Part shown: one piece after another, positions 9,577 through 62,080 of the stretch
Layout: each line of letters begins with the position of its first letter
Numbering within the stretch: position 1 is the stretch's first letter
From: Urechis unicinctus
Lineage: Eukaryota > Annelida > Polychaeta > Xenopneusta > Urechidae
NCBI GenBank assembly: GCA_034190875.2
Contig: CM067346.1
Location: 40,460,199 to 40,524,198, forward strand
Reading direction: 5' to 3'
DNA: 64,000 nucleotides
Notes under the pieces: model-generated
Databases searched by the model: none
What the model saw: the letters and a program-made list of their open reading frames with translations, nothing else
What the model was told of the DNA's origin: nothing
Translations under genes and position numbers: made by a program

Positions 9577-9608
<32 letters not shown>

Positions 9609-28279: not shown

Positions 28280-31200
28280 AATAAATAATTCCCTTTACTG
28301 ATACCTGTAAGGCATTCACCATCTGTTTTTGTCAGATAATTGACTCAATAGCCACCACCTCTGACATATTTCGTTGATTCGTTGTCAAAAGTGAATACAT
28401 ATTATTCATTTGGTTCGATTAGAGTTCCATATGTACTAAAGGTACGGGCATATTGAATGACACGAAGATGTTTTTGAAAGATGAGCGATACACACGTAGC
28501 CTTGTATGTGGTAACGTTATCAACTCTTTTCATCCGTTTGGCCTTATGCGCAGTCATGCGCATGAATTTGTATGTAATGCACTTTGTAGCACCGACAGCT
28601 TCATCCATGGGGCTGTTTGCAGCTTACGAGTAGCTGAAAGTTAAATTTTTTCTCGCCCCGTTTTGTCATTATGTTCATCGGAATAGCATCGTGTAGTATG
28701 CAATGTCGAATTTCGAACTGAGGAAACAAGTCGCGATTACAATTTTATTTATTAACTTAACACGTAGAGGTTACCAATGTCATAAGCAACACACTATGGC
28801 TACATGATCCTAAACCCCATAGCGTGAATCAGATCACTGCTGATTGTTGCGAATGTTTATAAGATAAGTATTAAGGGCTCTGACTTCATAGTAATGATAC
28901 CATGATACATCAGCAGTGAACCAGAGCTGCGCAGATGGCAATCAGTTGTGTCGCTGTGCATTGCTTTCTACGAAGCTCAAACGATAGCAATCCACCACCA
29001 CACGGAACCGCTCAGTTATAGAGCATTGACAGATGCAAGACTATGTTATCATCTATACATGATTCTAAGGATTAGTAGGCGTCGCAAATGAGATACGAGT
29101 CGCGACTTGATTATGAGATGCACAGTCTATTATCAGTTCCGAATCACAAAGCAAGAAATCCACAAGCATGAATGACATACCACTGCTTTTATGTATGATG
29201 ATGGGGCTGCACATTGATATGCAGCTAAATGAATTGGAACTATTGAGATAGAAGTTGGTACTGCAATTGACACAGCATTCTATGATTTTATGTAATATAT
29301 GGATTCATTAGAGAAATGGGCAATGCCGATGTTGAGAATCAGGAAATCGAGTCACAGGAATTATTTTGGCCTCATGGGGATTCCAATATGTAAGTATTGC
29401 ATTCTTTTAAACCGGAGCCATTATCAGTGTATTCGCAAATTTCATTTAACTGGAACTTTTAGGAAGCCAATAAAGTTTCTTTTTTCATAAATACGAGTAA
29501 TGATCAATTCCTAATCATTTAACTAATTGCAATCAGTTACCCCGGCTTATAATATGCATTTGTACCGTCCTGTGGCTTATTGGCATGGGAAATGGTACAT
29601 ATATCAATTAATTCACGTAATAGACCCAATGACACATCCGAAGCAGCAAACCAGTTAGCTATAATGATAACGTATTGATCAGGCGAAAATGCTGGACCCG
29701 CTAGCTACTCGCTCGAGGTCTGCCTTCAAAGCATCAATATCGAAAAATCACCGATGAATTCCGGTAACCGATATAAGTTGCGCCTGTTACTGAGTCCCAG
29801 GTCTGCCATGCATGACGAATATTACCATTTGCATGTATAAATGGTTTCAGTCGAACTTTATATGCAATCGAAAAGAGAATATGCAATAACGAAAAGAGAA
29901 TCATATTAGAGATAGGGTCAAATTGCGTGAAATTGCCGAACATTTCATCTTTAGAAATACAAAATGGCAGAGTCAATCATGAAACATATCCTTATGTTTT
30001 AATGCGAAATGTTGAATTGTTTTGGAGAGTGCAATATTGTTAGGCGATTTCGCCAAACGTACGAAGCTGTCGTTAGTCTAATTTCTTATCGGCGAGGTTA
30101 AGTAAAAAACTGCTTATGAGAGATTGCGTTAAGCCATTTGGTAATGGAAATGGCACCTGAATTCATAGTAAACAGTGAGGCGATCAAAATGGCACTATTG
30201 AATGAGGTCTTGGAAATATATTGTTTACTATTCTTCATGAAGTTTCAGACTACTCTTCAGGCCATTAGCTACCCCGTGCCTTTGTCAGCTCCGCTTATTG
30301 GATTGCTTATAAAATGAAGCATCGACTGTGAGCCATATCAGAGATGTTAATGTATATGAAGATTGCTTTCATGAATTAGTCAGTCACTGTGTTACTGTGT
30401 GTAATGTGGACCAATTTTCGTGTTTCATTCCCAGAGAAAAATAAGACATCATGACAATATCGATGTGTAATAATCACATAAATGCCCAGTGTTTTTTTAT
30501 TCAGTGACTATAGACACGCGGAACGCCCAAGATTCAGCTATAGCTATTGCTAGCACAGCATGTTTTCAATTGATTTATCGGCTTGTTTACAGGAAGCTTA
30601 ATTAAGATTTATATTGTATCTGCATGAATTTATCAATTTTATTATTTAAGGTCATGATACAACTGATATCGATCAGGATTATTGCACATCGAACATTCAC
30701 CTTGTTGCAATAAGGCTAGATAAAGTAAGATAACCCTGCATCGATTTGCGGTTTATGGCTCGTCAGATATTGATAATGATACCCGTTGTTTACAGCACGT
30801 AGACATTTGACGATGGCATTACAAATGTAAACTAGGGCAGAGTAAAGAATCGAAGCACGTATAGCTGCTCACCCGAAAGTATCATTGTTTAGCACCGTCT
30901 TTGGCATGTCTTGCACGATAAACACTGCCTTCAAAGGCATAAAGCACATATCATCTTGCGCATATATTCTTGGCTCTTTATTGTACAATGGGTTGCATTA
31001 TTTCACTAAACGGCTATTATTTATATCTATAAGAAAATATCTCTCTGGTGATGACTGTACTTGAGTTACTGCTTGTGTTGGGAATGGCAGTACACTATGA
31101 GCTGTATTAAATACTACGATTCTGCAATATTACTCGAATTAAGTTCAACATTGCCACCTAAGAGTATGCCACCATCATACTGCGAGGCACTGACCTGCCC

Positions 31201-34200
31201 TAGCTGTTTATTGCATTAGTATTGCAACAGTGGGCCTGCTACATCAAGGAATGCAATATCTTACATAATGAGGCCTAAGTATTTGCCCGCATCATCGATG
31301 CTGAGGGTTCGTTCTGGTAGGCTTCCATAGTTCACGTGTGGCTGGTACTGACGCATGCATGCCATAATGTCAGAATCCCAGGCAGCGCAACGCATGTAAA
31401 TGAAAGGATGCGCCGACTATGGACGATTGTATAAATTCACATTGTTAGACATAAATAACTATGCTCGTTTGTCACGTAACGTATGCAATATGATTACCTG
31501 ATTGGACGTTAATTCAGAATGAGCGAAGATGCAAATTAACAAAAAAATATCACTGCTGATGAGCCTGCAACCATCCGCAATAACAGTAGATCCCTGCTAT
31601 CGCTTATATTAATTCATTTTAGGACAATGAGCCGGATTGACACGAAGGAAGTTGGAAGTTTGAAATAGCTGTTGTATATGTTTATAACAGGGGGTACAAA
31701 TCCCCGATATTGGGCTTTTGTGATGTATAAGAGCGTGTGAATAACGCCGCATGACCATTTACGACTGAACTATGTAACCAGATTTTAAACAGATAACTTG
31801 CCCGATAAAAACAGTGTACTGGAAAATGTCCATGATGGGAGTAAGAGGCAAGCGCTCAGTGATCTGGATATCTAATGCGCGCGATTTTTCGCAATCCTGT
31901 AACAATTACTCGTTACAACCAAGTACTATGCCCTGCACAAACCAGAAAACCACCTCGTACATATAGCCACAATCGTCACGTATTCCATATGATGTAGGGT
32001 CATGGGAATACCTCCGTTTGTTCGCTCACCAACAAATGACAACTCCAACAACTGAAATGCTATTTAATGTTTTCATGGTTTAGCAACAGCCTCCATATCG
32101 AATTGATTGTACATTGTAGCTTTACATGTTCGCCCTTCACGTCTTCACGTGAAGACACTATGAATATCAATACATGTATTACACACAATTTGTGATCTTT
32201 GTAGTTATTTCACATCGGGGATATACTGTTCTGTACGCACCAGGTACGCTGTCCAGCAGAGCAACAACGAGCAACTGTGAGTTCATGGATGCAGCATTTG
32301 AACAGGTCAAGCTTCCTGGTTGTTACTGCATAAAAGTGTATGTTCAGTGTTCAGGATATTAGTAAGATTCCTGACTGGTGATAAGGCAACAAACACAAAT
32401 CCCTGGCCGGATGCGTATTGTTAGTGACTGTAAATGTTGGATAGTAATAAATGTTTGACCAAGTATGAACGCTAGCATCCCCAGAGGAATGATCTAAGAT
32501 AGATAAGGATGTAACCGCTTCGAGTAATAGCGAACGTCAAGTCAGGCGCCAGAGTGACGACAAGGTCCAGACGTATAACATCCGCTATCCTTTATTCGTT
32601 AATTGTCGCTGTCATTGAAACCCATTAAGGTGCCCTGCAACTAATGAGTGTTCCGTAACCACTATCACCAGACAACAAGACAGTCGCCGATAAAAGGCGA
32701 ATACTATGGAACAAGGAATAGAGTGCTTGCTTCATTTTACAAGTTTGCTTTAGGCAATCAATCAATCAATTAATTTTTGTAACTGTCACTATACAATTTA
32801 AAACGCTTCCATATGCTATACCCATTTCAATAATTAACCGTTACGGGATGGCTCATTCAGGCATCTGTAATAATGATGGTTGCCAGTCAGGACCAAGGGC
32901 ATGATCCAGAAAAGTAGCAGCGATATGGTAATGCGGTTTATTTGTTCCATAATGGTTAGAGTAGGCAGGATGGTTTAAGCATACCACACGTATGACAAGG
33001 AAACTAAGGCAGAGTCGGGCATTCGGAGTGGATGCAGATTACATAATTGTATATGCGCATCAACTTCGGACATGACTATCAATAGACTGTTATGACCTCG
33101 TGACTTTAATAAGTTAATAAGCCGATTATTATCTGATGCAATATCTGCTCGCCTTTACCATCGATGGTATAAAAGCACAGTCAATATAAACAAGAGTGGA
33201 ATAATCAGCAATGTACAGTACATTTGAAGTGGGATCGTATATAACAGAAGCATCAGCATACTTATCATGATAATTGTAACTGTTCAGAATTTCATGGCGG
33301 TCATTCGCCCATTCCGCTTAACTCAATCAAAGCATCCAAATCGTTCCTCATTAATGACATTAGTCTTAACTAGACGTATTGATATTGAACACGCTTGCCT
33401 ACCTATTGTTAAGGCAAAGTAAACATACCGCGATATCATTATTGAATCAAAGTATTGTTGTTGAATCTGAAGAAGTATTCTTTACTTCTATCTACAGTCA
33501 GCCGGTCATAATAAGAACACATACCATGTAATGCGTAATGTGCCGTCATCCCGCACCACTGTGAGGGCAGCGACCTCCCTTAGCTGTTCACTGCATTAGT
33601 AATTCAAGAGTGCCTCCTATAGACATCGTTGCACAATCTTATATAATGAGACGTATATTTGCCGGCATTATGGTTGCTGGGTGTGCACCGATGATTTGTG
33701 TTGGCATGTTTCCATCGTTCACTGCATTCGTGGTGATCCAGCTAACCCTTATAGTAAGACATAGGACAGAAACGCACGTAACTGAAATGTTACTCCGACA
33801 AAGGACGATGACACATTACTAGCTGTTTTATGTTAGTGCAGCGATTTCACGTTACAGCTTCAGGCATCATATAATGATTCGCGTAACACTATAGATGTAG
33901 GCCATAACGCCAAATTCTCTTTACATCACGAAAACAATACCTCATGTTCTCATTTCTCGCTCATGCATGAGAACAAGCGCATATTTTCATGCAAATGCTG
34001 ACAGTTGTTCTGAGTATAGTGATATACACATCACACCGTGAGGTAACATGATCAGGTGTCATTCGTTGTCCTGCCAAGTTAATATCAATTAACTATGCTA
34101 TTAGCATATGGATATGGAAATACGTAGCATTTGGCACGGTTTGTAATGTTGACAAACCCTCTCGATGCCTTGCTCCTTTTCTATTGCAATTTGTCTTAGC

Positions 34201-37200
34201 TGCTTAATTTAACGCGTTCATTGAAACCCCCTATACTCATACTTCGCCTTGAGCGAGAGCCAGTGACTATCACCACATGACCATTTAAGACTGCATATCC
34301 CATATGATGTAACTTCTTGAGTACATCTCCGTTTGTTTTCTCCCGAACAACTGACGAACTGCCTCATAACAACAATACAAACCGAAATGCTATTAAATCT
34401 GACTAAATGCTTTCATAGCTAATTACCCTGAGATTCAACATTGCATAGATTGAGCAGTTTAATTCTAAATGCCGACCCCAACATGTGTAGAAACTATGAA
34501 TAATGGTGGACGTATATGTATATAATTCATTATACAAGCTGTCTGTGGTCATTTCACATGAAGGGTTGCAATATTCTGTGCACATCAGGTACGCCAGCCG
34601 AGCAGAGCAGCATCGAGACACATCAGAGGATAGATTAAATACCCAGTTTTCTCTGGAATTTCATCGTTAGTCCATGTATATACATTTAGTACATGGACAC
34701 TCAACCTAAAAATATTGATAAATACTGCGCTGGTCACCGTCAATTACAGTGAATATAGAGGCCGATTCTGCTTGTGGTATGAATATGTCAAAGGAAAACG
34801 CGCCTATTGCCATATAACATTTGATGTATGCAGATTGTGTCGGTGATCCAGAGTAGCTTCTTACGAGACCGAATACAGGGAGCGGACTATTGCTATTGCG
34901 TATTTAATTATTCCTTCGTGTGACTGGAGCCTAGAGGGTTGGATGCCTTATTTAAATAGATAGTGATACATTGTCGGTATCAGATCGTCATACGAATAAC
35001 TACATCCCTAGAAAAGAATACTGCCCTTACAGTCGTACAGATAAAGGTTCCGTGCACAATCCTTGAGCTATGTACATCACTAATGCCTTTGTCAATTGTT
35101 ATTGTATCAACTAGGTGGATGAAACTAAACCATATCAAATAATATTCGTGGAATGGGGCTACCGAATTGCTTCGAAATACTGCATCGCATTTTGTTTTTA
35201 AAAGGAGCCAACGTATTTATCCAGACTCGTGCTGCATTATAAGAATCATGTGCACTTGAGTAGAAGGTATTGAAGCAAGCACCCGGTTTGTGGGAAACTT
35301 TGGATCTTAATAGCGTTTTTGAATTACCTTCGAGATTCCATCGAAGATCACAAGAACGCTATGGCTCGGTTGGAATCTGTGTATTATCTTATATTGAGTG
35401 ATTCTTCAACCGTGAGATTAATATATTTATTTATCTGCTTTTCTATTGGAATGTCGTTCAATACACAAAGGGGTGTTATTTGCTCGTTTGTTTATATGTA
35501 CAAAGCGATGATGGAAACCACATTTTTGATCCAATAATCACAAAAGCCGTATTATGGCCCAGCACGAAAAAGAATGGACAGCTGATTTGAGTTTAGCCTT
35601 GGCTCGCCAAGCTTGGCATCACCGTTATGATATCATCATTAAATATAATCTTCATCAAACCGGTGTCGTCTGTGTTTCAAGTTATCTATGTTAGTGCTGA
35701 TGATAATGTCGGACCAGTGATTTTGGATGAAGACGAACCTTTCATTTACTTTCTTTACAATTTATGCCATCTTAAACTTAAGTCAAGCAAAGTTTTTGGG
35801 GTTTTTTCCACTAAAGGGCTAAAGGACAGGTGAAATGATATTAGATCATCAATCATGATTAACGAAATTGGAATTCATCCGGCGACCCCTGTTTGACAAT
35901 CGAGCTTCTTTTGTTCACATCAAGACAATAGTCAGGCACAACTGCGTATTGTCCCTGTGGAACTTTGCGCCTAAAATATAAACTCCAGATACCCTTTGAA
36001 TGGCTTATCACATCGAAGCTGGTAGGCAGTCATTTAGTTTAATGTCGTTAATGTGCCACAATACAGAAACTGCAGTTCTTCGTGAAGGAGGAGTAGAAAT
36101 TTAGTTATTGATAGGATGTGACATGTAAGGCCATCCATGGTGGAACAAAAAATATTAAATAATGGGATATCAGAAGACTTCTTCATCTGCAACATAACAT
36201 GCGAACATATGGCTAATATATAGCATAGATATTGCCTTTGCTACAGTTGAATAACGTCATATACTGCACATATGAATTTGAACGAGTATTTTCGGCAAGG
36301 TATAGGAATGAAGCAGGACAATTCTAGACATACACTGCATTAATATAACATCTACGGGGCCACTAGGAGAATACGGTCTATATCAACCACATTGCGATGC
36401 TTTCCACTTTCTATCAAAGGTTACTTGGATGTATTTGTTCTGTCGGAGCTGATTAATTATTCCATAGCGACAGAATGATATAATTTATTGCTGAGTAGTT
36501 CTTTATCTTCAATGGAATGATTAATTGATTGAGAGAAGATCTGGTTGCTCTCATTAGTTCACTTAATTATCCGTTGGGATCCATGGGTTCTCAAACTTGT
36601 ATGGTGCCCTGACTTAAAGCCAGTGACATGACTAACTGTAGGACAAAGAAAAACCATGCATAAAAGAAACAGTATTCCGGCCATGGGGATTACCACGGAT
36701 TATACCAAAATGCCTAGTCTTGCTTTGTGTATTTCAAAAGAGGTGTTGCACTATCCCATTGTTGCTCGGTCCAGGACAGCTTACGAGCAGTAGAATGGTA
36801 TTAATTACTTACATCACGTTCGATAACATGCCTGCTACATAACTGGAAATCAATTGTGTTGCCGCCGTAGGCGTAATGCATTGGGCACCTGAATTGGGGT
36901 AATGAATCCGCAATAAAATGTTCTACATTTACTACTAAAACCATAGGTCATACATTGTGCTTTAATGAAGTTTCAGTCAGCACATTATATGCACAGTCTG
37001 GGAGCAGTATGGCTTCCTCAGTAGCTGATTAAATGACAACTCATAAAATAGCAATGTTAATCCGTTGTTGCGTGAGTCAGGGGTATCTGTTACGTTAAGT
37101 CGGGAATATGCGTTGTTGAGATATAACAGACGGCGTATATTCCGTAATTTGTCACATAACATATTTGTCGACGACCATAACAGAGCGTCTATTGCCTGAT

Positions 37201-40200
37201 AGCCGCTACTTTTCCGACAATATATGTCACATGCCTTACGCAGATGCCGGATACAAGGCCTGGTAATTAGGGTGTATGAAATACTATTGTACTAAAATGT
37301 GTACTAAAACTGTAACTAGATCTACTTATTTCGTCATTAAACAGTTCCTCCATGAGAAACTGCCTCTCCCAACGTGATCGCTTCAAATGTGGTATGAAAG
37401 TGATTAATATATTTGACACTAATCTATATAGCTCAGCTATACCACAGAATAAGCCTGGCGACGATAAATCGTAAAACACGTTGTCTGTGGTATTAAGTGG
37501 CACAAGGCAAGCGTTTAATAATAACTGCTCATATGTTACTTTGTTTGCACAAACCCGAGACCAGCTTCCTTAGCTTGAGTATGATAAATAAGCGAGCGAA
37601 TATTGATATATAGTGTACTATCAAGTGATGATACTACCGTCAAATAAATATGTTCTTTCAAATTTGATGTGGGTGATCCCAGACGTAATTACGTCCAGAG
37701 CAATAGTTTAACCTATGGCCACGTGCAGATCATGGCAAAAGTGGTTACTACATTTGATGGTAATTATGCTGCCACAAATGTATTATAACGCCTAGTAATT
37801 CGACAGCAACAATGCAAGTAGTTATTTAGTTTATATAAATTTAAGTTATACGACAAATGTTATGAAACTAAAATGTTATGCTACTTTGACATCGCCATTG
37901 AAATACTAGCGCTACAAACCCTGTACCCACACCGTTAAGGCGGATTTGGAACACACCCTACGTCACAAAATAAGGAATACGGTTGCGAATTGATTATACT
38001 TTTCCTTGTTGCAATTTACCGAATCTCACCAAACGGGTTTAATAATGCGTTCTGAATATTGCCGATACAGCCTCGTTTAATACTACAGAATAAGAGCTGC
38101 TTTATTTCTTTATTTATTTCATGAAAAATATCATTGAGATTTACTGCCGAATTTATTATGACTCTCTTCATTTACATTCGCGGCGCCTGCCAAGGCACAA
38201 GCCATCAATCGTGCTATAATTAAACTAGATGATAAGGCTCCAATGAATCAAACTAAGCATTGTCCCTGCATTATGGAACGTTTGGTTAGCTAAATGTTTA
38301 CTACATATAGATTCCACACTATTGGGGGTGTCTGGAATGCAGCCTGACGTATTTTACGAATGCCTCAGATGGCATTGAATTATTACTGCTCCATAACCTC
38401 GTGGCGATAGCAGAGACAAAATATAACGGATGGCAAGTGCGTGAGAAATAATTGATGATTCCACCAAGTTGTTACTTTCTCTTTATTCCGGTCGCAATTT
38501 ATACTTATTTCATGTTCTGCCTAATGCCATTGTTATAGGAAAGTTGGATATTAAGATGTACATTACCACTATTGATATTGACAAGACAGCCGCCTTTTGT
38601 GGCGCCCGTCAAGGCGGGAACACTTAAACTACGGACTAGAATTGAAGCCAATAACAGCATCATGGCATACAAAAGCTGTTGCCAGAAAATGATGACGTGT
38701 TAACCACCTTGGACGTCGATAGTGTAGACAAGTACATCAGGCGGTTTTGCTAAATCTATTGTGTTGGTTGGTTATCGTCATGGTTTATGTGCATCAATGT
38801 CGTTGTTGTCCTACATATAAGGGTGTGTGCTACTGCACGTAATCCTTCCGGACAATTAAACAGCTAACAGCTATGTTTTAAAAGAGCTTATTGTGGGTAG
38901 TTGACATTTGATATGCAAAGCAAATAAAGAGATACGACGTGTTACAGGGCTGCTAATAGGGATGGCGGTGAAGCGTCAAGCTGGTATGGAACATACCAAT
39001 GTTAGCACTTTTCAGTACAAATGTAGTTTCACAAGCTGACTCGAGTTAATTAACATATCATCCATCTATAGCAAAGCAAGCTAATTCTGATCACCACCAG
39101 GATGCCCCCTTGACTGTCAATCATTCACAATCGTGGGCAATGTGCTAACCGTGGCGATTTTTCTCCTGACCAGCAAAGCATTTAGCTCTACAAATAACTG
39201 CTCCCGCCCAAACAGGCAGAGAACGGGAAAATTAATTTGATATGATTTGATGTCGCCTTGGCAACATGAACAAGCCTTGTATTTGCTGCCATGACGCATC
39301 GTCATATGTACATTTTGTTGAGTTCTTAAAGCTGACAAAAGTGGATGTCTATGATATAAAAGATACTGGTGGTACAGCACAAGGCTCCCATCAGATCACT
39401 GATTCAACAGGTTCATGTGGACACATATGACTGTTGTTAATCATACAGCGTATTCAGAGTGAATGTTGGTTAATTCTTGCAAATGGAATGCAAAGAAATT
39501 ATCCATTTTAATCCAACAGTAATGACTAGAATGGGTCTTATCTAACAAAATGAGTGCATTCGTCAAGGATAAATCCGTAGATAGATAATATAATCGAATG
39601 AAATGAACACACAGCAATATTCAGACTCAAGTTAAAAGGTACACATACTTCTGAAATGAGCAGCTTTTGCCATAAGAAGTCTGACAGGTCTGTTAACTTC
39701 ATAACCAAGTGAAACATTATAAACTGAGTTCATGGAATGTTGTAACCCGACTTCTTCTGTTTCGTAAATAACATCATCCATGATGCAAAGGATACCCATG
39801 CATGGATTCTATAGAACGTAACTCAGCTGTATTGGTTCAGTCGCAACTGACGAATTAATCCGCAAAGACAGACCGGTATGTCTAACACCTGAGCAATGTT
39901 ATATCTGCAGTGGGGAAGTGTATGGATTTATCTATCTCGGAGAGATGCGACATATCCATTGTATGAACTATCCCAGTACAGGCTTATAATATGTTTCTCA
40001 CAGAGCATCCATCTTTGTTAAAAAAGAAGCTGTTGACATGGTTAGTCTGTCTGTGGTATTAAATGGCATTAGGCATTTTAAGGCGTTGAAAAGTACCCAC
40101 CATCGAAAGATTGGCAACTGCAAATGATGCTGATATAACGCTACAGATGCATCATAAAGACCAGTTGTTCCATAACCTCGTTCTATTAGGTTGTCTTCAA

Positions 40201-40701
40201 TTTCATAAATCCGGGAAATGATATGAAACACTGGTGTTTAACATCTTGTTCAACAACGAGGTAATATGGTTTAAACGCCGTCGCTCAAATTACCCGCGCC
40301 CGCTTTGCACAAACCCATTCCCCACACTCCTGGGACGGAAGTCCAACACGTGCTACCGAATAGGGACATCTCATAGGTTATATTTACCCTGGTTGCAAAG
40401 AACCGGTTCTAATATAAAGACCTATATAATTCGCACTTTATATTGTTGATAGGACCATATCAAATACTCGAGAATAACTGCGTTCTTTACGTCTTTACCT
40501 ATTTAATGTAGCAGTGTAGTTGAGTCGCATGTATTTGTTATCACTGTTCGTAAGACTGAATAAGTATGATTACTACAGCGGAACATATTTACAGTTATTG
40601 AGGATGTCACAATCACATACTAAAAACCAATTCAAGTAATTAATGATACTGAATTGCTACATTGTATTGATGGAATGACATAATGGTGCTGCACAGCATG
40701 T
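28280..40701 (+). repeat. Diverged copies of a long modular repeat
   Basis: Many pieces match elsewhere in the same orientation. 28298-28420 matches 55270-55385 ('tgtaaggcattcac', 'gttgtcaaaagtgaa' versus 'ctgtcattagtaaa'). 30890-31000 matches 43985-44060. 31180-31290, 33540-33680, 40785-40880 and 60800-60900 share the 'gtgcctcctatag' module. 31975-32300 matches 34275-34620. 32547-32690 matches 57306-57440. 33200-33420 matches 60240-60440. 35790-36110 matches 45630-45925. 36540-37260 matches 52125-52650. 39830-40450 matches 52030-52080 and then 42330-42740. Divergence is roughly 20-35%. No protein-coding frame is kept across copies. Confidence 0.75.
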
Positions 40702-43700: not shown

Positions 43701-44413
43701 AAGCCCACTGGTTATGAGCTAACAGGCCGATTGTTTTCTGTTGCACTAATTGCTCGCCTGTGTGATGGTTTGAGAGGACAATCAATTATAACCAATAGTG
43801 GAATATTCAGCAATTGCATGGTACATTTGACTTCCAAGGTTTTCCAAATTAACGACACTAGTCCTATGTAGACGCATTCGTATTGCAGATTCTAGCATAC
43901 CTCAAGTTAACGCGATTTCGACATTTTGAGGAATCACAGTATTGCTTTTTATCTGGAAGGCCACTCACTAATGTTATCTTCAGCAAGTCGTTCACGATTA
44001 ACACTACCTTGAAAGGCATGTATCGCTTATTTATATTTAGGGTATATGCACGGTTCTTAATTATTTAAATTATTTCACTATTCCCATGACCGGCAAACTC
44101 TAAGAAAATACAACTCAGATGACTTTCATTGGTTCATAATGCAAAACAGAGCTAGTTTACGTACCACACTCTTACATCAATATTCAACATCCAGCCAGTG
44201 GTGTCATAATAAGAACATACACCATGTTATGCGTAACATGATGACATCTCACCCCACTTTGATGTCAGCTTACTGCCTTGGGTGCTAACTGTCTGAGTGG
44301 TACACACACAACTAACATCAAAAGAAAAGGACAAAGAAGAGGTTTAGTGTTTTATCCCCATGAATAAAACACTAAACAAACGCACACACACAAAACACAC
44401 ACAAACGTATATA

Positions 44414-44580
<167 letters not shown>

Positions 44581-45116
44581 GGTGTGGGTGTGTGCGTGTA
44601 TATAAATATAAATACATTGCCATTTCTCCCTCAAGTTATAAAGTGGATACGACCATCACGTAGTACAGCTTAAGATGTAGAGGTGTTATTCATTTTAGCT
44701 ATATGATAAAGCGTCACGATGAACTGATAACTACTCAAACAACACACCTGATAATGTTATTATTCTTCGTGTATACAACATAAGAGCAGTGTTCCCGTAT
44801 GAACGATGAACATGTGTTTAAGCACCATTACGCAGTGTTATGAGGGAGCTGGCTGCCAAGGTGAGAGACATTAACTGGCCCTTATTAAAAAGCCTCTTCA
44901 GAGCGCAGCATATCGGTTTGATACTTCAATGACCTTGTCAAATTGTGTAACGGTACCAAAACAGTGACATGGTTAGATGCGTCAAAAGTTACAACACATA
45001 TGGGTTAAGGGTCTATGCATACAAGCACACATAAGAACACGCATGCGCGATTATATATGGTTTTTAAGGTCCGTACAAACACACACTAATTCACACACAC
45101 CTATGGACATACAATC

Positions 45117-45421
<305 letters not shown>

Positions 45422-48400: not shown

Positions 48401-50067
48401 GAAATCATGTGAAAAACAATAGAATAATTAGTTTCTTCAATACTTTACTCCTGGAAAAACCCATCATTGTTAACTTTTAAATAAGATCAATATAAAATGT
48501 AACTATACATGCACAAGTGCTATATGTTATGGATAAAAATGGCATTGTATTGGCTGTAGGTGTATTTTAGCATTGGAATCAATTATGAAGGACGCAACAA
48601 ACAACAGCTGTATTATTCGCATCAATAATAGATATTTCTAAGTTCGGGTGGCCTGATTATGATTTTTAGAATAAATCAGTGGCTGAGTCAGGTATGGCGA
48701 ACATACCAAGATTGCAGCTTGTAGCTGTACTAATGCTGTAGAACAAACAATGAAAAATACTTACTTTGTGTGGCAATCGCTACAAAACTACTGCGTGATT
48801 CGAAACAATTGTGGATATTTCTACGTTTGTGTGGTACAATATTGATGTAGCAAGCTGTACTATAGCTCAGTCGTTGAGCATATTTCGACGACGATATGAA
48901 GATACTGGTAGCAGTTTATTTTATGTGGTATCTGATGTAGATGGGTACAGTCGTGGGTACTTGTTATAACTGTTCAAAATACTTAGTATAAGCTAATCTC
49001 ATTATGGTGTTCACACTTGAAGCTCATGGTCCTATAAAAGCAATTGATAATCACCTCACAATACCATTCCCTCGATCCAATCACAACTAATAGCCTCACG
49101 TCTGTCATTCATTTGATGCAATCGCGAGGGGCTAGACACGGGTAAAATTGGTTATGCCATAATGGATGAGTAATAGGGAATTGCAATTATGATTTAAATC
49201 ATCATCCTAAGTCGGATCGGAGTAACCTTTTATTGTTCAGGTATTTCTATGCAACGACTTTCCCTAACTGGAGCGCGATGCATGCTTCGGTTACGCCCCA
49301 AAACAAACCATTGAAACGACCAAGACCACACCACCTGCAGTGATGATTTGATCTATGACTTTCCGAGCGATAAGCCCACTGGTTATGAGCTAACAGGCCG
49401 ATTGTTTTTCTGTTGCACTAATTGCTCGCCTGTGTGATGGTTTGAGAGGACAATCAATTATAACCAATAGTGGAATATTCAGCAATTGCATGGTACATTT
49501 GACTTCCAAGGTTTTCCAAATTAACGACACTAGTCCTATGTAGACGCATTCGTATTGCAGATTCTAGCATACCTCAAGTTAACGCGATTTCGACATTTTG
49601 AGGAATCACAGTATTGCTTTTTATCTGGAAGGCCACTCACTAATGTTATCTTCAGCAAGTCGTTCACGATTAACACTACCTTGAAAGGCATGTATCGCTT
49701 ATTATATTTAGGGTATATGCACGGTTCTTAATTATTTAAATTATTTCACTATTCCCATGACCGGCAAACTCTAAGAAAATACTCAGATGACTTTCATTGG
49801 TTCATAATGCAAAACAGAGCTAGTTTACGTACCACACTCTTACATCAATATTCAACATCCAGCCAGTGGTGTCATAATAAGGACATACACCATGTTATGC
49901 GTAACATGATGACATCTCACCCCACTTTGATGTCAGCTTACTGCCTTGGGTGCTAACTGTCTGAGTGGTACACACACAACTAACATCAAAAGAAAAGGAC
50001 AAAGAAGAGGTTTAGTGTTTTATCCCCATGAATAAAACACTAAACAAACGCACACACACAAACACAC

Positions 50068-50246
<179 letters not shown>

Positions 50247-50780
50247 TGTGGGTGTGTGCGTGTATATAAATATATATACATTGCCATTTCTCCCTCAAGT
50301 TATAAAGAGGATACGACCATCACGTAGTACAGCTTAAGATGTAGAGGTGTTATTCATTTTAGCTATATGATAAAGCGTCACGATGAACTGATAACTACTC
50401 AAACAACACACCTGATAATGTTATTATTCTTCGTGTATACAACATAAGAGCAGTGTTCCCGTATGAACGATGAACATGTGTTTAAGCACCATTACGCAGT
50501 GTTATGAGGGAGCTGGCTGCCAAGGTGAGAGACATTAACTGGCCCTTATTAAAAAGCCTCTTCAGAGCGCAGCATATCGGTTTGATACTTCAATGACCTT
50601 GTCAAATTGTGTAACGGTACCAAAACAGTGACATGGTTAGATGCGTCAAAAGTTACAACACATATGGGTTAAGGGTCTATGCATACAAGCACACATAAGA
50701 ACACGCATGCGCGATTATATATGGTTTTTAAGGTCCGTACAAACACACACTAATTCACACACACCTATGGACATACAATC

Positions 50781-51079
<299 letters not shown>

Positions 51080-52000
51080 TTACAATTAATGCATGTGATC
51101 TGATGACGACTACCAGTTATCTGCTGTAATATACGTCGAGTCTAGACCCCACGCCAACCGACTAGAAAGGTCTAACTTTTTTTTAACTGTAATTATGTGA
51201 TATCAAATTATCGTTTTTTAGTATCATTTGTATAAGCCTCATTCTAGTGAATACTTCCGAAACTGTCGATTAGGATTCCTTTTCTATTTTGGCTAAAAGG
51301 CAAAAGTTCCATTATCAAAGTTTATTTGGATCATCAATTATGATATCGAGATACGCCATTATTCACGTCGTCCTGACGATAGCCGGATAGAACTGCTAAT
51401 TCCATTGCTTATTGACCCACTTTACATCTAGGCCTTGATGAGAAAACCCTAGAGATCCTTGGAATGGCATATTTTATCGACACTACCAGGAGGTCATTTG
51501 GTTCAATGTCATTAAACTGTCACAATGCAGGAGCTGAATTTCGCCGTGAAAGAGGATTGGCAAATTAGTATTTCATGCGATGTGATTTGTGAAGGTCTCT
51601 GTAGTGAGACGAAAAATATAATGACGACCTGCAGCGATTATGATGAGGCAGTGAATTACAATAGGCCACTTCGATCAACTGAATATCACTTTCGACGCAT
51701 GGTACAGCAGGTGACGTAATGTTGGTACAGCTAATATACTCACTGCTTCTCTTACAAATGTTATTCAAGGACTCAGGTGGAGGTGGTAAAGATTGATTAT
51801 TGGGGAAATTAATTGTCTATTTTAGTAGTGAACGCAGTTTGTCTTAATATAAGTCATTGTACAGATACGTAGCATGAAGGCTCATGGCAGTCATTCGGAT
51901 CATTGAAATAGGATACATATTCCACCAATCTGAAAATATACCACTATATGCACTATTGGAACGCGTGAATTTTCCATCATTCCCCATAAGAAGGAGCTTG

Positions 52001-55000
52001 TGGTTTATTTCAACCATACGGTATTGCATTTTGGATTATATCTAAGGTGACTCCGATGCAACTGACGAATAATCCATAGAGATATAGAGGTGGGGGGGGG
52101 GATTCATCCAACCCGTAGTAAGTAAACATTTGGTTGTTCTCACTGGTTTGCAAGTGTTATGGTGACATGACGTTCAGTCAGGGATATGGCGAACCGCAGG
52201 ACAAAGAACAAAGATACTTAACATAATCTAAAGATACTACCAAAATACACAATCTTGCATAGTACAGCTCAATCAGAACACTAGGGAAGTGATGCATAAT
52301 CACATTGCGTCATGTAACATGCCGTGCAGTAGATGTAGGGGATTGAACTCGTAAATGACATTATATTCGTCAAAAAATTAAATGTTCTGGAGAGCAACTG
52401 TACTTACTACATGTACCATATACACTACAAGAGAGGCAGTTTTGGCTGGGTTAGGGGTTTCTGTTAAGAAGAGATTATGCGTAGAGACATGGCATATGGC
52501 CCGGAATTTCGCGCTCGTCACATTTGTAGATGAGCATAACCGAATGTCTTAGAGTCAAGCAAAGACAAATTGTTACTGAGAATATTCGTAAGCCATGCAG
52601 ATGCCTCAAGCAGCTGCCGGATACAAGGCCTGGTTATTTAGGGTGGAACGAATTAGGCTGGTTGCGATAAATCTTTAGGCAATATGGCTGCAACAGCCAG
52701 GCTGACAACGATATATAATATTATAACAGAACAATGAACAAATTCAGTATATGCACCAGTTCAGGGAAGCCTTTTTATTCGCTTCGAACAGAGCAGCCAA
52801 TTTCATTATCAAAACAGTCAAGGTTATCGTTGGTGGTTGGTGACGGAAGCAAGTATTGATTACTGTATGAATGAAGGCGCAATCTAAATTGTGTACGTGC
52901 CTTGTCTTAAAATAATTTAGTGTGTAGATATAGGCCAATTGAAAAGGAAGATGAGTAACTTTGGGTCTTGAAGCTATTAAAATAGGCCAAAGCACATGGG
53001 TGCCACATCATTTAACTGGCATTAAATATATACCATTTGAAATAGTGTTAGTATACGAATGTTTTCCCATTAAACACGTATTATTCTGCAACAAGGTATA
53101 CCTGATACGCATTTGGCTGTAATGTCGATACCAAAACTGACGATGTATAGAAATAAACATGAACAATTCTGGAGTAATTTGCAATCAACGTCAAAAATGT
53201 ACCCCCTACAATGATAAGCAAAGACAATATAGGTCTATGTGATACAATGTACGATAGCGTCACATAAAAACGATACAGAAAGAACTCGGCGACAGAAGAG
53301 CTTAATAGTTTTGACAATGGATACTAATGGATTTTAGAGCAGTTACCTCATTATGCATATGTGTATAGCAAGCTATCCAGTTGACAAAACCCGTCATCTT
53401 CTTTGGTGATATTACAAAAAGCTACCAAATTATCTTCGGATGTACGCAGGGTTTTCACCATGCTTGCAGCTTATTTCTCGAAACAATCAACATGATCGGT
53501 GGAAGATTTGTACACTGCAGGAACTTTTATACTCAAATACAATTCAGTGTCTTCATTTATTGCAACAAGATATTATCATTTTTTAAATGAACTGGTGTAT
53601 TTTTGCTTCTAGATGTCTGTGATATTTTTGGGACTGTAACCAGGCATGTATTGATGGTAATGTTTACGACTGAAGCACACTGTGAGGCATTTATTCTATG
53701 ATAAAACATTAATCCTTTCTGTGGGTGTATGACCCCCTGAAACAAGAGACAACAGCTTGCAATACTAACGAACAACAGCAGCAACGCCTGTTTCTGAGAT
53801 GCAGCATTTATCACGCAATGATTGACGGTAAATAATGCAAACAAGTGTGCATTCGCAGAGGGGTTCTCGGTGAATATCGCGAAGTCAGTTTGTACAAGTT
53901 TCTCTACACGCACGATCTATAGTCTCGTTTTTATGTTAGTGATATTTACGCAGCTGTTGCACGAGGCAGAGGCCGCTCATGGTCCTCATATTGAAACGCC
54001 CCTTTTGTCACATTTAACATATTTCAGCATTGTATGCACGTCATTATTATCGTCACTTTAAATATTCGTCAATATTTATGTTTGTCGAATTTTCAAACGT
54101 ATAGTGCATAATTTATAATTGAGAATCAGTCAATCAAGAAATCAGATGTTTGACACTATCGGGATCTGGTCTGATAAGATATTTATGCGAAATGTTATAA
54201 CCTAAACGGGTGGATATATACATTTTACCGCACAGTCAGTCACCAGTTCAATATCTCAAGAGGAGCAACTAATCAAATTTCAGACCAATGGCAATGATTG
54301 TTGTATTGCATGTCATTCGAGCAGGAGAGGCATTGTTAGCCAATTAAAATATGCATCCTGACATACGTCCAATAAAATATCAATATAATGAGACATCATC
54401 CTGTAGAACATTAATGTTAGCGTAGGTATCGGTCTTCTAGTCAATATATGGCCTTTACTTATCAAGCAATGACAATGCCTAAGGCGCGTTATAACAAACC
54501 GCTCTGCATCCTTAAGTGGGTTGCGACCTGCCCCTACCAATGACCGCGCTGGTATTCAGCAGGTAGCTTTAATGCCGACAGTCATGTAGTGTCATACATA
54601 ATCAGGCGTATGTATGCGCCAACCCTGTCATTGTTGATTAATCAACACTGATGGTGTTGCGTTACTCTCTAATCTCTGTCCTAATGTCGATGGAGCGCAT
54701 GACCCGTTTTTAAATAATTGCAGGCTTGTTGATCCAGCTAATCCTTAAAGGTTGGCTTTTCAAGGAAATACACAAAGCAGAAACATATCGCTGACAAGAA
54801 GATTCTTCAGATCCACAATCATGAGAACAGCCGGATGATATCCTTTTGTTGTGCATTACCTGTTATATAATTGTTTACTGGCAAGAATAAAATTCGATGA
54901 GGCTAAATAACGATGAACATGGCCGATGTTGGACGCCGATATGCCGCCGGTTAAAAAATATAGTTGGTCTGCCTTTATTGAACAAGACCCTGTATACGAA

Positions 55001-55782
55001 AAGTGACGTGTTATAAAAGTGTGCATAATTATGTGAATTGTACAAAGCTAGTGTTTAAGTCGTCCATGTTGTCGTTTTCAATGTGCTTATATGTCTATTC
55101 GATACCGTGAATTTGGACCCAAACCATCGGCGCTTTGGCCAAATTGGTCGTGTTGCACCGTCGGGGTCGGGCATATAAGCTGCAGTTTCGGAATCTGGTT
55201 GTATCATATGCAAACTGCAATCACATGACAGACAAAACTTGTCTTACTATAGTGGAATTGTTCCCTTCAATCTGTAAGGCATTCACTGTCTGTCATTGAC
55301 AGCACGTTGACAGTAAAACAGCTTTCTCTCTATGATATTTCACTGACTCACTGTCATTAGTAAATGCAAATAATTCATCTGGTATGGTAAGTGTTCCTTA
55401 TGACTCAAAATATTCTCAAACTAATGGTGTAGACATACTGAATGGAACTTTAATTCCTTGACGTTTTGAAAGTCGAAATAATCGAACGTGGATGTGTATC
55501 AAATTAAGATACTTAAACGCTTTATCTGAAGTTAACGTAAAGAGTACTGGTGGCCATTCGCCAATTCCGCTAGACTCCAAAAAAAAAAAAGTCTCTTCCT
55601 TAAAAGTACGAGGAAAAAACAATTGAAGCGAATCAACTTCAATTATAGTTGCATGCTGCCACTGATCACGGCTTATTACTGCAATGCACATAATAAATTC
55701 ATTGTGTGAGGCCTTTAACCCTCATGTGGCGAAAACCTCATTCTGCACAAAGTTTCTTATCAGAATTATGTAAAAATATATA

Positions 55783-55858
<76 letters not shown>

Positions 55859-55870
55859 TATATATATAAA

Positions 55871-55910
<40 letters not shown>

Positions 55911-58849
55911 ATAAATTTGAAGGGAAAGTATTTTACATTTAATATTTAATGAGGTACATTGCCTGTTTCAGTTGTAATTGAACATGACATTCCAGCATGA
56001 TTACCAAATATAATGAAACCGTGTTCTTTCACCCTAGATATATAAAACATGACCGATGGCTCACACTCACATTGTTTACTTCGATAGATTTTAATACTGT
56101 AAGTTAGAATGATCGTAAATTAATCAATTATGTATTTAAAGCTGCATAGGAATGGTTTTTAAATTTTAAATTGATCTAAGCATCAACCGTGAACCATTGT
56201 AAACGACAAAACAGATTGTTACGATGTTTCAGTTGATTACCAACATGTGCTGTGTGGTACAAGCATGCAACCAAGTATATGCTTGTTGGGTTACACAATA
56301 AGGAAATAGCAGAGGGAAAGTAGAACAGAAGTAATCGATATCTCCACAAAGTCGTTACATTCTTTGATTGCTGAAGCTCTGTCCTCTAGTTTCATTTTTT
56401 TAGCAGTTTGTGTTATTTTCACTCTGAAAGATGAATATTAACGTCCACATAACCGCCATTAATATGTGCTACACATCCGCCTTAACGACACCTATCAAGA
56501 TTGGAGCCTATACATAACGAGCTAAATAAAGTCTTTGCTACAAATTGATGACAAGTGGACAAAGATTGCCAACATGCTTCGGGATGAATTTGAAAACAGT
56601 CATTTGCACAAATTGACTGTTACATGCTGATTTGGGAGAAGTCCGGATAGCACGAAGGTGTAGCGGAAACAATCATCTGGAAATACCGCAATGAACCCAC
56701 CATCACACTGCAGATTTGCCCCTCTCCTTCCAGAATTTACCAGGCAGCCGTATCATTGACCTGCTTATTTGATGGCAAGCTGTACCATGGCCTGTCGTTT
56801 ATGTTATAATCTATGGACATTGTTTCAGTCGTGTGCTACACTTTTGTAACAGGTGTCCACTATTGGTTCTGCTGCATATAGTCGACAACAAGCATATATT
56901 GATGGTAATAGGTATCGTACTGTTACAATTTTAGCGATACAATCAAGTGCATATAAATAAATTCTTAGCGAAGTACAAGAGCAAAATGAAAGTGCTTTGC
57001 CTACTGAACTATTGCAATCCGCATAAGTTATTATACTAATGTAACCGAACAAATACTTATTGTGGCACTTGAGATAATTATGTAATATTTGCCAGCAATG
57101 CTCTTGTCAGGAACATATGTGTTTTCCGTGCCTGTCATTATAGCTGACGTGATAAATAATGCAATTACGAGTGCTATTCAGCTGCCTTCACAAAATCACA
57201 AATAAAAACACGCCATTTATATAAATAATGGAACTGATATATGCAATATGTGGATTGTCAATAATCTACCGTTATTAGTGATTAACCAAAACGGCACTTA
57301 GAAGGTGGCGCCACAGCGGAGTTCCAAATGAATCACTTAATATCCGTTATCCTTAATGAGTTGTAATCGTTGTCGGTGAATCCCATGCAAATGCAATCAT
57401 TACCGTCATCAAAATATTATCCTTACAAAACTTGCACCACGCTGGGAATTCAATACCGCAACGCGCCTAACTAAATAAAAATACCATTGAGGTGTGTGCA
57501 AGAATGAAACTGAAGTGTGATACTAGTGCGGCAATCGGATAGGGTAGGGCCCTCTGTTCACGGTGCATTTTGAGGACGTTACATGAAACATTTTTTGAAG
57601 TGAAACCGTGGTATTGCGCTTTGTCCGAATACGATGCGGTAAGAGGATATCACCAGATGCAGCCCTTGCGGGATTTAACGCCTAACAGCGGCATTGATAT
57701 TAGACAATGTACACAGTGAGTGATCCTGCTTCAGTGGGTATAACTTTACATAACAACGTATAGTCAGGTCAGCTTCTTTGTTCAATAATACCAGGTTATG
57801 TCAACGCCTGGTGATTTGTGCTGCAGTTATTGAACCGATTCAGTCCGTCACTAATACCCGTTCAACCTAATAGTATTCGCCGGAGAAAATGTCTGCTTTG
57901 CCCCTCATTAGAATGGGGCAAGTTCTGGTCATGTACGGGATCGGGTATGGGGGCGGTGGAAGAAGATACGTTATGGAGAAGTACTGCCTCATTAGTGTCA
58001 CTTCAGTTTTGTAAGTGTGCATCCGGGGTGCGGCAATTCATAATTGGATCACTTTTTACCGCTTGATATCGTGCCTATAATCATGTTCCACTGTCGCATG
58101 ATATAGTTAGTCATGCGCCTTCTATCACTCGGCAGCACTTAGGATTCTCAATTATATGGCATGATCCGAACAACCATCATCCAGGTGAAGTGTCTAACGC
58201 AACGTTAAAGGCCGACTTTGCCGATTAATGTATCAGAGATAACAATTCAGAAAATTTTATCAAGGGAGTAACAAACGATAAGTTCCCATCGTGCTTACTC
58301 GTAGAACATCTAACACCTAATCACTATACTCAAATCGTCATGACCCAGATGGCAACTATTGTATTTCATGGCCAGCACCAGATAAACAACCTATCTGGTG
58401 TAACTCAAACACGTATTTCATAGAAATGCCAAGCTACACCAATATTTCAGCGTTATCATGCATGAAACAATTGCAATGTGCATGTTAGCTCCATCATGGA
58501 AATTGTTCTCTACAAACCGTTAAGAAATACATCAACTGAACATCTCGTATCGGCAAACGCCGACAGCCTATTGTAAACGTTTCAGACTAAGCCATTCCGT
58601 CCTAATCCTAGTCAATACACTCATTTACTTCTTATCTCTGACTGAATAAACGTCATCTAAATATCTCGAGATCATCAGCATTATTTGGTTAATATTTGTT
58701 CAGTGGGTCGCATCTATCTATTGTCTTTAACAGCTAAAGCAGAACGCGCAATCAAAATCATGGCAATCTACTGAAATTATATAGCAAAACCCATGTGACT
58801 AACTTTGCTGTACATTGTCCTTATAAGCATTACTTTGTAGCTGGATATT
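52001..58849 (+). repeat. Diverged members of the long repeat, with unassigned sequence
   Basis: 52030-52080 matches 39835-39880. 52125-52650 matches 36540-37260, with 'ggatacaaggcctggt' shared near the end. 54715-54800 matches 33730-33800. 55270-55385 matches 28298-28420. 56770-56800 resembles 43180-43215. 57306-57440 matches 32547-32690. A run of 10 G occurs at 52092-52101. Between these, especially 52700-54600 and 57500-58850, I see no repeat match and no gene. A plus-strand open frame at 53822-54061 has a hydrophobic stretch (FMLVIFTQLL) but no other support as a secreted peptide. Confidence 0.55.
55774..55915. repeat. (TA)n microsatellite with TTTA/AAAT interruptions
   Basis: Mostly (TA)n, interrupted near 55786 (tttattta), 55853, 55868 and 55897. 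It lies in the unassigned part between diverged repeat pieces and is unrelated in flanks to the microsatellites of the recent duplication. Confidence 0.96.
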
Positions 58850-60840
58850 TATCAGTGTAAAGCAACCATAAGACTTGAAAGAGAACATTTTGCGAAAGTC
58901 CTAACTACTTTAAGCCGTTGAAATTTCCACACCATCGAGAGAGTGGTAATTACATATGATGGTCATATAAGGCATCAAATCCATCATAAAGACTGGTAGC
59001 AGTTGTTCCATAACTTCGTTCTAATACGTTTCAAAGCCGTGTGTAAATTTTGCAAATATGGAAAATGATATGAAACACTTGGGCTTAACATCTCTTTTAA
59101 CAAGGAGGTGATAATGTTTTACGCCGTCATTAAAATTGCCAGGGCCCGTTTTGCATAAACCCACCTCTAGGACACCTCCACCACGTTCCACAGAATGCAG
59201 CAGCTCATAGGTTATGTTCACTCTTGTTCCAACTAACCGGTCCTCATAGCAAGGCTTAAATAATACGCGTTAAATATTGCCGAGAAAACTATGTGAAATA
59301 CAATAAAATAACTGTTTCTTCACTACAATTCTACTGAAAAAAACCGTCATTGCAAGCTTCCAAATAATTTAAATATTAGATATAACTGTACATGTTTGCA
59401 TATAATGCATAAAGTGACGCGACTGGTGACGGATGAATATGGCACTGTATGGGTTAAAGCTGTATTTCAGCAATGGATCAATTATGAAGGACACAATATA
59501 CAACAGCTGCTTTATTCGCATCGATAGTAGATATTACTAAGTTCGTGTGACGTGATATTGATGAATAAAATAGATCAGTGACTGAGCTAGGTATGACGAA
59601 TATATCAAGAGTGTGGCTTGTAGCTGCATTATGCTGTAGAACAAACAATGAAAAATACTTGGGCTTAATTTGAGTTGCAATTGCAAACAACCGCGTGATT
59701 CGAAACAATTGTGGATATTTCTACTTTCGTTTGGTATGATATTGATGTAGCAAGATATACCATAGCTCCTTCGCTGAGCATGATTTGACGACGATGTGAA
59801 GATACTATTAAGTATACTTTACATGTGCGGGTAGCTGGATGTAGATGGATCGTGGGTACTTGTTATCACTGTTTGAAAGACTTAATATACGCTTATCTGC
59901 ATTATTGTGTGCACACGCGAAGCTCATGGTTCTATAAAAGCAGTTGATAATCACCTCACGATACCATTCCCCCGATTTAATCATAACCTTTCTTTTGCAG
60001 GTATTTCCATACCACGTCTTTCCCTAACTGGAGCGCGATGCATACATCGGGTACGCCCGAAAACGAACGGTTTAAACCTGCTAAAACGACCAAGACGGCA
60101 CACCCTGTAATGATGATGTGATCTATGAAATTCCTAGCGAACAGTCCATCGGTTATGGGCTAACAGGCAGATTGTTTTATGTTGCACTAACTACTCGCCT
60201 GTGTGATGGTGTGAGATGACAATCAATCTAACCAATAGTGGAATAATCAGCAATGGCATCGTACATTTGACGGGGAATCATATATACAAGTATCATCAGC
60301 ATGTTTACGATGAGATTTGTAGCCGCATGAAATGCTATGGCGATCATTCGCCCATTCCGCTCAACTCAACCCAAGCTGCCAAAGCTTTTCAACTTAGCGA
60401 AACTAATCCTAAGAAGATTCTTGCATTATCATAGTTAAGTCGACGTGGACATTTAGAGAAATCACAGCATTGCTTTCAATTCAAAGAACTATTCGTTAAT
60501 GCGATCGTCGGCATGTCGTTCACGATAAAAATTACCTTGAAAGGCATGTATCACTTATCAAATTTCGCAGTTATGCACTGTTCTTAATTATATCAATAGT
60601 TTCACCATTCCCATCAACTGCAGTCACTCGGAATATACTAGTCTGATGCAGACTTCATTGGTTCATATCTTGGCAATGGCAAAACCGAGCTATTTTACGT
60701 ACCACACTCTTACATCAATATTCAACATTCAGCCAGTTGTGTCATAATAAGAACACGTGCCATGTAATGCGTGATATGATGTCATCCCACCACACTGTGA
60801 GGTCAGCTACCTCTCCTAGGTGCTAATTGTCTTAGAAGTA
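58850..60840 (+). repeat. Older third copy of the duplication core
   Basis: Colinear with 42320-44300 (copy 1) and 47965-49970 (copy 2). Shared blocks include 'acttgaaagag', 'caaggaggtgataatgtt', 'agggcccgttttgca', 'ccctaactggagcgcgatgc', 'gggctaacaggc' / 'gagctaacaggc', 'ttgaaaggcatgtatc' and 'cacactcttacatcaatatt'. I estimate 15-20% divergence with indels. It lacks about 130-150 bp present at about 43420-43555 in copy 1. Relative to copies 1 and 2 it has about 100 extra bases near 60270-60380, which also occur at 33215-33340, so those bases were lost from the recent copies. Confidence 0.9.
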
Positions 60841-62080
60841 CAACAGAATGCCTCCCATGGAAAACGATTCAGTTCCCGGAACCATTTAATGATTCGCGCG
60901 ACATTGTATACCTTGTGCTCCGAAACCACTATCTTCAAACGGAAAGGGAAAAGCAAGACGCTTTGTGTTTTATTTCCATATATTTTCCGTGTGACTTACT
61001 CCTCGTGAGTTGGATGTCGGCTTGGAGCAAATATGCCAAGCGACGAAAAGGACACAATGATCACGGAAGAGAGTATGCCGAAGCAGTTGTGGGCCATATA
61101 ACAATAACTTCAAAAGGCTTGGACACTTTCGTCCAATCCCTGTACCCTACAAAGCTCCTCTTAGCTCAGGAATCGTTCATCAATCCGCCAAATTAGTTAA
61201 TTCTTTTTGGTTATAATTTCTGGTTTAAACTTGCCTTAGCTATGCTTCAAAAGCATAGTTAAGGGTCGTGTAATATAATCAGTTATTTGTTTTCGGTTTC
61301 CAGGGCATGAGTAATTTGTGTTAGACGGTAATATACCATGATTGACAGGCCACGTATCTTGTAGTTTCGTCAAGCGTGTATCACTGTCTCTTTTATCAGC
61401 AAGTGATACATGAACCTGTTAACAATGTCCCAAGTGGTAACATTTGGTGCATCAGAAATAATTGTTATGCATTGACTCCGTCATGGTTGACAAAATTACC
61501 ACGCTCTCGTGTAGTTTATTCATTACGCAAATTCTGGCGGAAAGTAGTGAGCGTTACTCTGGGTATCTAGTTCAACTATGATACAGCATGAATTAGATAT
61601 CGAAGGATATATGAACAGACGATCAACCCAGGTACGACCCCCAAGTGGTTGTACGCCAGGAACAATGCCCAACATCAACAAACTAAATATCAACACCAAC
61701 AGATATTCTGCCAACGCGGATATTACGTCACACGCATCATTCATTAAGGTAGTTTATGTGCAAGTATAGTAACTGCAAATATAGCAAGAGATGCTGTAAT
61801 TTGTTGGAAATATATCAGCTACCATATGACCGGAAAATATTAGTATGTCCGATAATGCTACAAAACAACAAGTACTCAAACTTATGATGTCAGATGTTTG
61901 ACTAGGTTGTTACATTCTGACCGAAATCATCCTCCGTGTCTGTTTTTATCCGCACATATGCTCTTCAATCGAAGCATCACAAGGTTTGCATAGGCTTATG
62001 AATGTGACATGTTGATGCTGGTGAAAGCGCACAATACTTGCTCAGGACAATCGATTATCAGACTCTCCGTTGCCACATAT
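60841..62080. other. Module remnant, then non-coding sequence
   Basis: 60838-60910 starts with 'caacagaatgcctcccat', matching the 'gtgcctcctatag' module that also follows the core at 33540-33620. In this position it shows the original order of modules. 61315-61385 resembles 4145-4215 weakly. The rest shows no gene or repeat I recognise. Confidence 0.5.

Follow-up and report, generated by a model that had tools for sequence, protein, structure and literature searches.

What kind of locus is formed by non-coding segments that resemble each other over tens of kilobases, mostly in one orientation and in a recurrent order? The question is raised by a stretch of 64,000 nucleotides from Urechis unicinctus (hereafter the window; C5:40460199-40524198, where C5 is contig CM067346.1), in which an earlier sequence-only reading had described an ancient, decayed array of such segments. 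Based on the analysis presented here, the locus is interpreted, with a probability of roughly 0.8, as a mosaic of local segmental duplications, nested in one another and widely different in size and age, in apparently gene-free animal DNA. The duplication cluster is probably without function.

The genome comprises 1,190,315,542 bases in 926 contigs (1.19-Gb). The surroundings of the window were analysed as 304 kb of DNA (C5:40360199-40664198; 24 fetched stretches plus the window), some parts of which are N.

Copies within the window and its surroundings

Eleven modules (g, h, c1, c2, k, p, x, y, z, v and u) were cut from the window and sought across the 304 kb. The following features were identified; positions are those of the window, and the type of evidence is given in brackets where several were combined.

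12648..13460, plus strand: local duplicate outside the 28-61 kb interval first described, matching 16500-17388 at 62-66%
28230..28459, plus strand: copy of module z, 65% identity to 55199-55426
30852..38700, plus strand: oldest recognisable run, c2-g-h-c2-g-h-p-x-c1-v (self-comparison, module map)
40075..40498, plus strand: truncated c1 copy preceding copy A, about 68% identity to 42363-42783
40702..46342, plus strand: first of two young tandem copies (A), 5641 bp, with modules g-h-c1-c2-k-p (self-BLAST, alignment, module map)
42298..44310, plus strand: core modules c1 and c2, the "core" of the earlier reading (self-comparison, genome search, module map)
44408-44577 and 45157-45420, no strand assigned: two AT microsatellites within copy A, with counterparts in copy B at 50072-50243 and 50821-51078
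46343..52000, plus strand: young tandem copy B, modules g-h-c1-c2-k-p as in A (self-BLAST, alignment, module map)
52003..58850, plus strand: x-y-z-v-u modules, which separate p from the following core (module map)
58845..60867, plus strand: older core copy, in which 80% of ungapped columns match 42298-44331
28230-28459, 30852-31241, 31082-32290, 33107-33799, 35939-36157, 36445-36670, 37021-37282, 37702-38165, 38393-38640 and 40075-40498: older segments (self-BLAST)

Copies A and B lie head to tail and were paired at 97.2% when the window was compared with itself by BLAST. Over 5607 aligned letter pairs they differ at 82, and these mismatches are very unevenly placed: runs of 300-600 identical bases adjoin others that are about 5% different. 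The oldest run has a sub-period of approximately 2.38 kb (at 31204/33584).

In the self-comparison of the window all matches within 28-61 kb were on the plus strand, microsatellite hits excepted; one weak opposite-strand match, 37478-37658 against 11085-11268, reaches outside this interval. The 304 kb gave 1328 same-strand versus 257 opposite-strand directed hits at E 1e-4, most pairs being counted in both directions, and no hits were obtained with the reversed 304-kb sequence as control. A same-strand copy within the 304 kb was found for 98.2% of unmasked 28280-61200 and for 91.4% of the unmasked window, while 83% of the unmasked 304 kb has a same-strand copy elsewhere within it (87% on either strand). 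The coverage of 98.2% and the empty control bear out the earlier description of recurring non-coding modules at 28-61 kb, nearly always in one orientation. The limits then given to the feature did not hold, as most of the window and flanking DNA on both sides are included. DNA of the same family, at 58-75% identity, persists at C5 40.310 Mb (largely on the opposite strand) and at 40.700 Mb, and the cluster, of which the 304 kb and these two points were read, spans at least 304 kb and probably about 390 kb or more.

Order of the modules

Module matches in the 304 kb numbered 173 on the plus strand and 13 on the minus strand; 147 and 11, respectively, were left after overlaps and reference copies had been removed. 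Among 96 neighbouring pairs made up of two different modules (reference copies excluded), 71 kept the reference order. Across 5000 shuffles of the labels the share averaged 12% and never exceeded 22%; some of the copies counted in this comparison are duplicates of each other and hence not independent. A consistent module order, as previously noted, was thus recovered. The remaining 25 pairs were chiefly skips or returns: h to c2 (four), h to p, x to c1 and u to x (three each), c1 to v, v to c1, x to v and v to c2 (two each), and four singles.

The run c2-g-h-c1-c2-k-p-x-y-z-v-u-c1 is present in the window and recurs, with losses, at C5 40.381-40.390, 40.440-40.455, 40.549-40.560 and 40.637-40.651 Mb; its x-y-z-v-u portion was likewise recognised, with losses, at 40.381-40.390 and 40.549-40.560 Mb. 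The older form c2-g-h-c2-g-h-p-x-c1-v occurs at 30.8-38.7 kb of the window and has two further copies to the right, the second of which lacks v. An inverted piece lies at C5 40.428-40.430 Mb.

Ages and sizes of the duplications

Copy identity ranges from about 55% to 99.7%. Five young local duplications were identified in the 304 kb, with unit lengths differing between 2.3 and 6.7 kb and with varying unit borders; two of them start directly at a run of N. Three are pairs with offsets of 2284 (98.0%), 2468 (97.2%) and 5642 (97.0%), one is a trio with an offset of 3205-3245 (three copies, 99.1-99.7%), and one is a pair with an offset of 6669, matching at 97.5% over 4.7 kb with about 2 kb of each unit outside the alignment. 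A larger and somewhat older duplication also involves the window:

27004..39850, plus strand: block with a second copy 49 kb to the right, at C5 40.536-40.549 Mb, 90.7-92.1% identity

This block of at least 13 kb itself contains older copies. The piece that follows it, 40.2-44.4 kb, shows 95.9% identity to the corresponding DNA at the second site. Older pairs, with identities of 73-89%, are separated by up to approximately 265 kb.

The locus had been read as an ancient decayed array. Old local amplification, decay and consistent order were all found, and this part stands; a single long-period tandem array with one re-expansion does not, because there are several offsets, five young duplications, inverted pieces, the 49-kb-distant block and probable exchange between copies (described below).

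Confinement of the core to one locus

A search of the whole assembly had been suggested to distinguish a local array from a mobile element. It was run with the 2-kb core, the sole module searched genome-wide, and the resulting repeat counts are lower bounds. Matches were found at 30 places. Of these, 22 fall within C5 40.38-40.65 Mb, including one on the minus strand. The other eight, on C6, C9, C13, C14 and C16, are 38-51 bases long and fall within the same 52 query bases. Long matches are confined to C5 40.38-40.65 Mb, which marks the core as local; other modules may be dispersed. A dispersed mobile element was ruled out for the core because all long matches lie in one 270-kb interval.

The short matches, at 85-92%, correspond to a piece of about 50 bases in core module c1 (42514-42565), of which a 30-base part recurs in the core copies of the region and is absent from two control stretches. 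This piece is likely to be what is left of a dispersed repeat, and it appears to us to resemble a repeat common in molluscs.

The two control stretches, on C9 (63% N) and C13, gave no matches to the region. Local repeats are nevertheless present in each of them: an array of short units in the C9 stretch, and in the C13 stretch a pair of 1555 bases at 99% (L034:30-3731). Local duplication may thus be frequent in this genome and the locus possibly unremarkable there.

Search for coding sequence, RNA and constraint

Mismatches between copies did not follow a codon pattern with any regularity. In the alignment of 42298-44331 with 58845-60867, 4 of the 24 gaps had lengths divisible by three. Multiple alignments were made for nine modules, x and y (one copy each) being left out, and the longest frames open in all copies were of 14-63 codons. 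Compared with the reversed alignment, shared open frames were longer in seven of the nine modules (1-18 codons) and shorter in two. In block shuffles the frames of h, c2, k, z and v were at or near the maximum (reached by 0-2 of 60 shuffles). When gaps were kept, h (8/200) and v (13/200) were somewhat long and c1, k and u ordinary; for g, c2, p and z this shuffle was little or not informative, nearly all shuffles returning the observed length. Two of the frames were as follows.

42088-42240, plus strand: frame of 51 codons in h, open in all aligned copies, dN/dS 1.50, 8/200 shuffles
56878-57066, minus strand: frame of 63 codons in v, open in all aligned copies, dN/dS 1.04, 13/200 shuffles

Pooled dN/dS in the longest shared frames was 1.50 for h, 1.54 for k, 1.06 for z, 1.04 for v, 0.92 for p and 0.68 for u. 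The short shared frames of g (14 codons) and c1 (29 codons) gave 0.54 and 0.38, and c2 was not computable. The longer shared frames thus showed no purifying selection, and the short c1 and g frames lean to constraint. The median dN/dS over 870 open-frame pairs chosen by protein similarity was 0.75, which leans the same way as c1 and g; the 40 lowest values, 0.12-0.25, belong to short, similarity-selected pairs and were not taken as genes.

Pfam searches covered 170 of the 188 open stretches of at least 60 aa in the window, the other 18 being situated in copy B, at its junction, or beside microsatellites. No match was found in 93 of those searched and one, at E 0.0088, in the other 77; the latter was taken as chance. 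No family was detected in 155 of the 191 stretches of at least 78 aa at neighbouring loci, the mobile-element stretch excluded, nor did one open stretch compared with PDB sequences give a match. The excluded stretch lies outside the window at C5 about 40.411-40.426 Mb (L014-L015) and contains several long open frames that look like those of a Maverick/Polinton-type element (polymerase, packaging ATPase, capsid-like); it was masked afterwards. A 576-aa open frame without a Pfam match at E 0.01 is located at L017:5468-7195 on the minus strand.

Rfam gave no match at gathering score in the window, and a known RNA family or tRNA was rejected by the RNA searches. Conserved islands were sought in h, c1, p, z, v and u, with copy B excluded. 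The least variable 60-column window had a shuffle p of 0.07-0.83 and the most variable one of 0.02-0.54. Islands were rejected, variable sites being evenly spread along the six modules, and this even divergence fits neutral decay. A coding family is considered unlikely. The earlier statement that no reading frame is conserved is largely in line with these results: a few shared frames exceed their shuffles, but none is convincing, there is no codon pattern, and the longer frames show no purifying selection.

Probable exchange between copies and the A/B junction

Exchange was investigated with copies A, B and E (49 kb away) and with F (C5 40.636-40.641 Mb) as outgroup. At 40702-41108, A shares seven derived sites with B and none with E. 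The relationship changes in the adjoining tract:

41109..42218, plus strand: tract of about 1.1 kb in A in which the closest relative switches from B to E (shared derived sites)

Here 14 derived sites are shared by A with E and one by A with B. Further on A again groups with B, by six sites to none at 42219-43400 and two to none at 43401-44400. In a second alignment of the tract, 37 sites had A equal to E against B; F carried the letter of B in 17 of these, that of A in 16 and neither in 4. Beyond about 45.7 kb E aligns poorly, and sites shared by A and B carry no weight there. Since the closest relative switches along A, no single tree fits. The simplest reading of the switch would be conversion or recombination between copies; recombination between alleles or mixing during assembly could produce it as well.

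At the A/B junction (46342/46343), the sole p-to-g junction in the module map, the breakpoints have no shared bases. For this reason the tandem copy was probably not formed by crossing over between old repeats.

Alternative explanations

A remnant of a large mobile element family, inserted many times at one place, would account for the many copies and for the matches of the 50-base c1 piece on five other contigs. Against it are the restriction of all long core matches to the 270-kb interval, the dominance of one orientation (147 plus versus 11 minus module matches), and copies that start and stop differently without common ends; this explanation is very improbable. The previous opinion that the segments are not a mobile element is upheld by the same undispersed core and missing common ends, and by the lack of an element protein in the 170 of 188 open stretches searched. 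Homogenisation of a long-period satellite or a higher-order array by unequal crossing over, perhaps near a centromere, would agree with the same-strand order, the nested periods and the confinement of the core to one place. There is no fixed period, the copies are mostly far from identical, microsatellites, unrelated pieces and inverted segments intervene, and long core matches are missing from other contigs, all of which makes such an array improbable. Uniform tandem units of fixed period are absent, and a classical satellite, already discounted in the earlier reading, was ruled out by the absence of a constant unit or period.

The locus may also be viewed as a tandem lncRNA gene family, or as a decayed protein gene family of which introns and spacers are seen. 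Long persistence of order and sequence, shared open frames that in some cases exceed the shuffles, and the dN/dS of the short c1 and g frames (0.38 and 0.54) are in its favour. The even divergence without islands, the lack of codon pattern and domains, and a dN/dS that approaches or exceeds 1 for the longer of the shared frames (h, z and v) speak against such a family, which we regard as unlikely. Misassembly of two haplotypes as a tandem is somewhat less improbable for the young pair A/B and perhaps for other young pairs, the patchy A/B divergence being haplotype-like. It leaves the copies at 55-92% unexplained and is still unlikely. The mosaic of nested local duplications remains the preferred interpretation.

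Comparison with known systems and proposed mechanism

Segmental duplications are usually defined as copies of at least 1 kb with at least 90% identity. Alignments of 8.7 kb at 90.7%, 4.7 kb at 97.5% and 2.9 kb at 99.4% reach these values, many older copies being below 90%. Copies of this length and identity, no high-copy dispersal (of the core) and nested mosaic subunits were found, and the cluster was therefore filed with the segmental duplications or low-copy repeats, a class whose 90% threshold only the young copies pass. Clusters of this kind are known best from primates and around genes. None of the titles retrieved in a literature search dealt with such a cluster in an invertebrate.

Tandem gene clusters under birth-and-death or concerted evolution show local duplication, decay and exchange between copies. 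The present locus shares these three properties and differs in that no gene was found within it. With satellites and higher-order repeats it shares head-to-tail copies in one orientation, but it has no constant unit, no homogeneity and few copies. According to PMC3040729, the LCR22 repeats of human 22q11.2 are a mosaic of duplicated subunits, some with local and potentially tandem expansion, and their clustering is linked with "duplication shadowing". The present locus resembles LCR22 in its one-region subunit mosaic, local expansion and clustering. It differs from LCR22 as described there in that no gene was recognised here, the copies are far more diverged and the core is restricted to a single site; the LCR22 duplications are associated with Alu elements.

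Multi-kilobase non-coding segments were copied repeatedly to nearby positions, mostly in the same orientation, and a mechanism can be proposed. New tandem copies would start at unrelated breakpoints, through replication slippage or end joining, as suggested by the one young junction worked out, which has no shared bases; the joining step rests on this A/B junction. Existing copies would then exchange sequence through conversion or unequal crossing over, and all copies would decay neutrally. The cluster may persist since duplicated DNA tends to duplicate again, and not through a function of its sequence. A long-lived, gene-free duplication hot spot of this kind, with non-homologous joining, sister copies as little as 55-60% identical and conversion refreshing some of them, is put forward tentatively and as a possibility.

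A gene-free cluster with copies of all ages would allow the rate at which duplications start, the speed of decay and conversion to be measured without selection on genes. Should the pattern be general in this genome, it would speak of the duplication rate of the genome and not of the locus.

Base composition and minor repeats

The G+C content is 0.35-0.41 per 2-kb block at 28-62 kb, except for two blocks of 0.31 that contain AT microsatellites. CpG is mildly depleted over the whole window (0.83); the observed/expected ratio is 0.40 at 20-24 kb, 0.59 at 24-28 kb and 0.75-0.99 in the other 14 blocks. A decayed short-unit tandem repeat with units near 28-31 and 93 bases was observed at 22582-25399, and long microsatellites of the type (TACA)n/(ATAC)n are located at 1451-1898 (about 450 bases) and 9160-9770 (about 610 bases).
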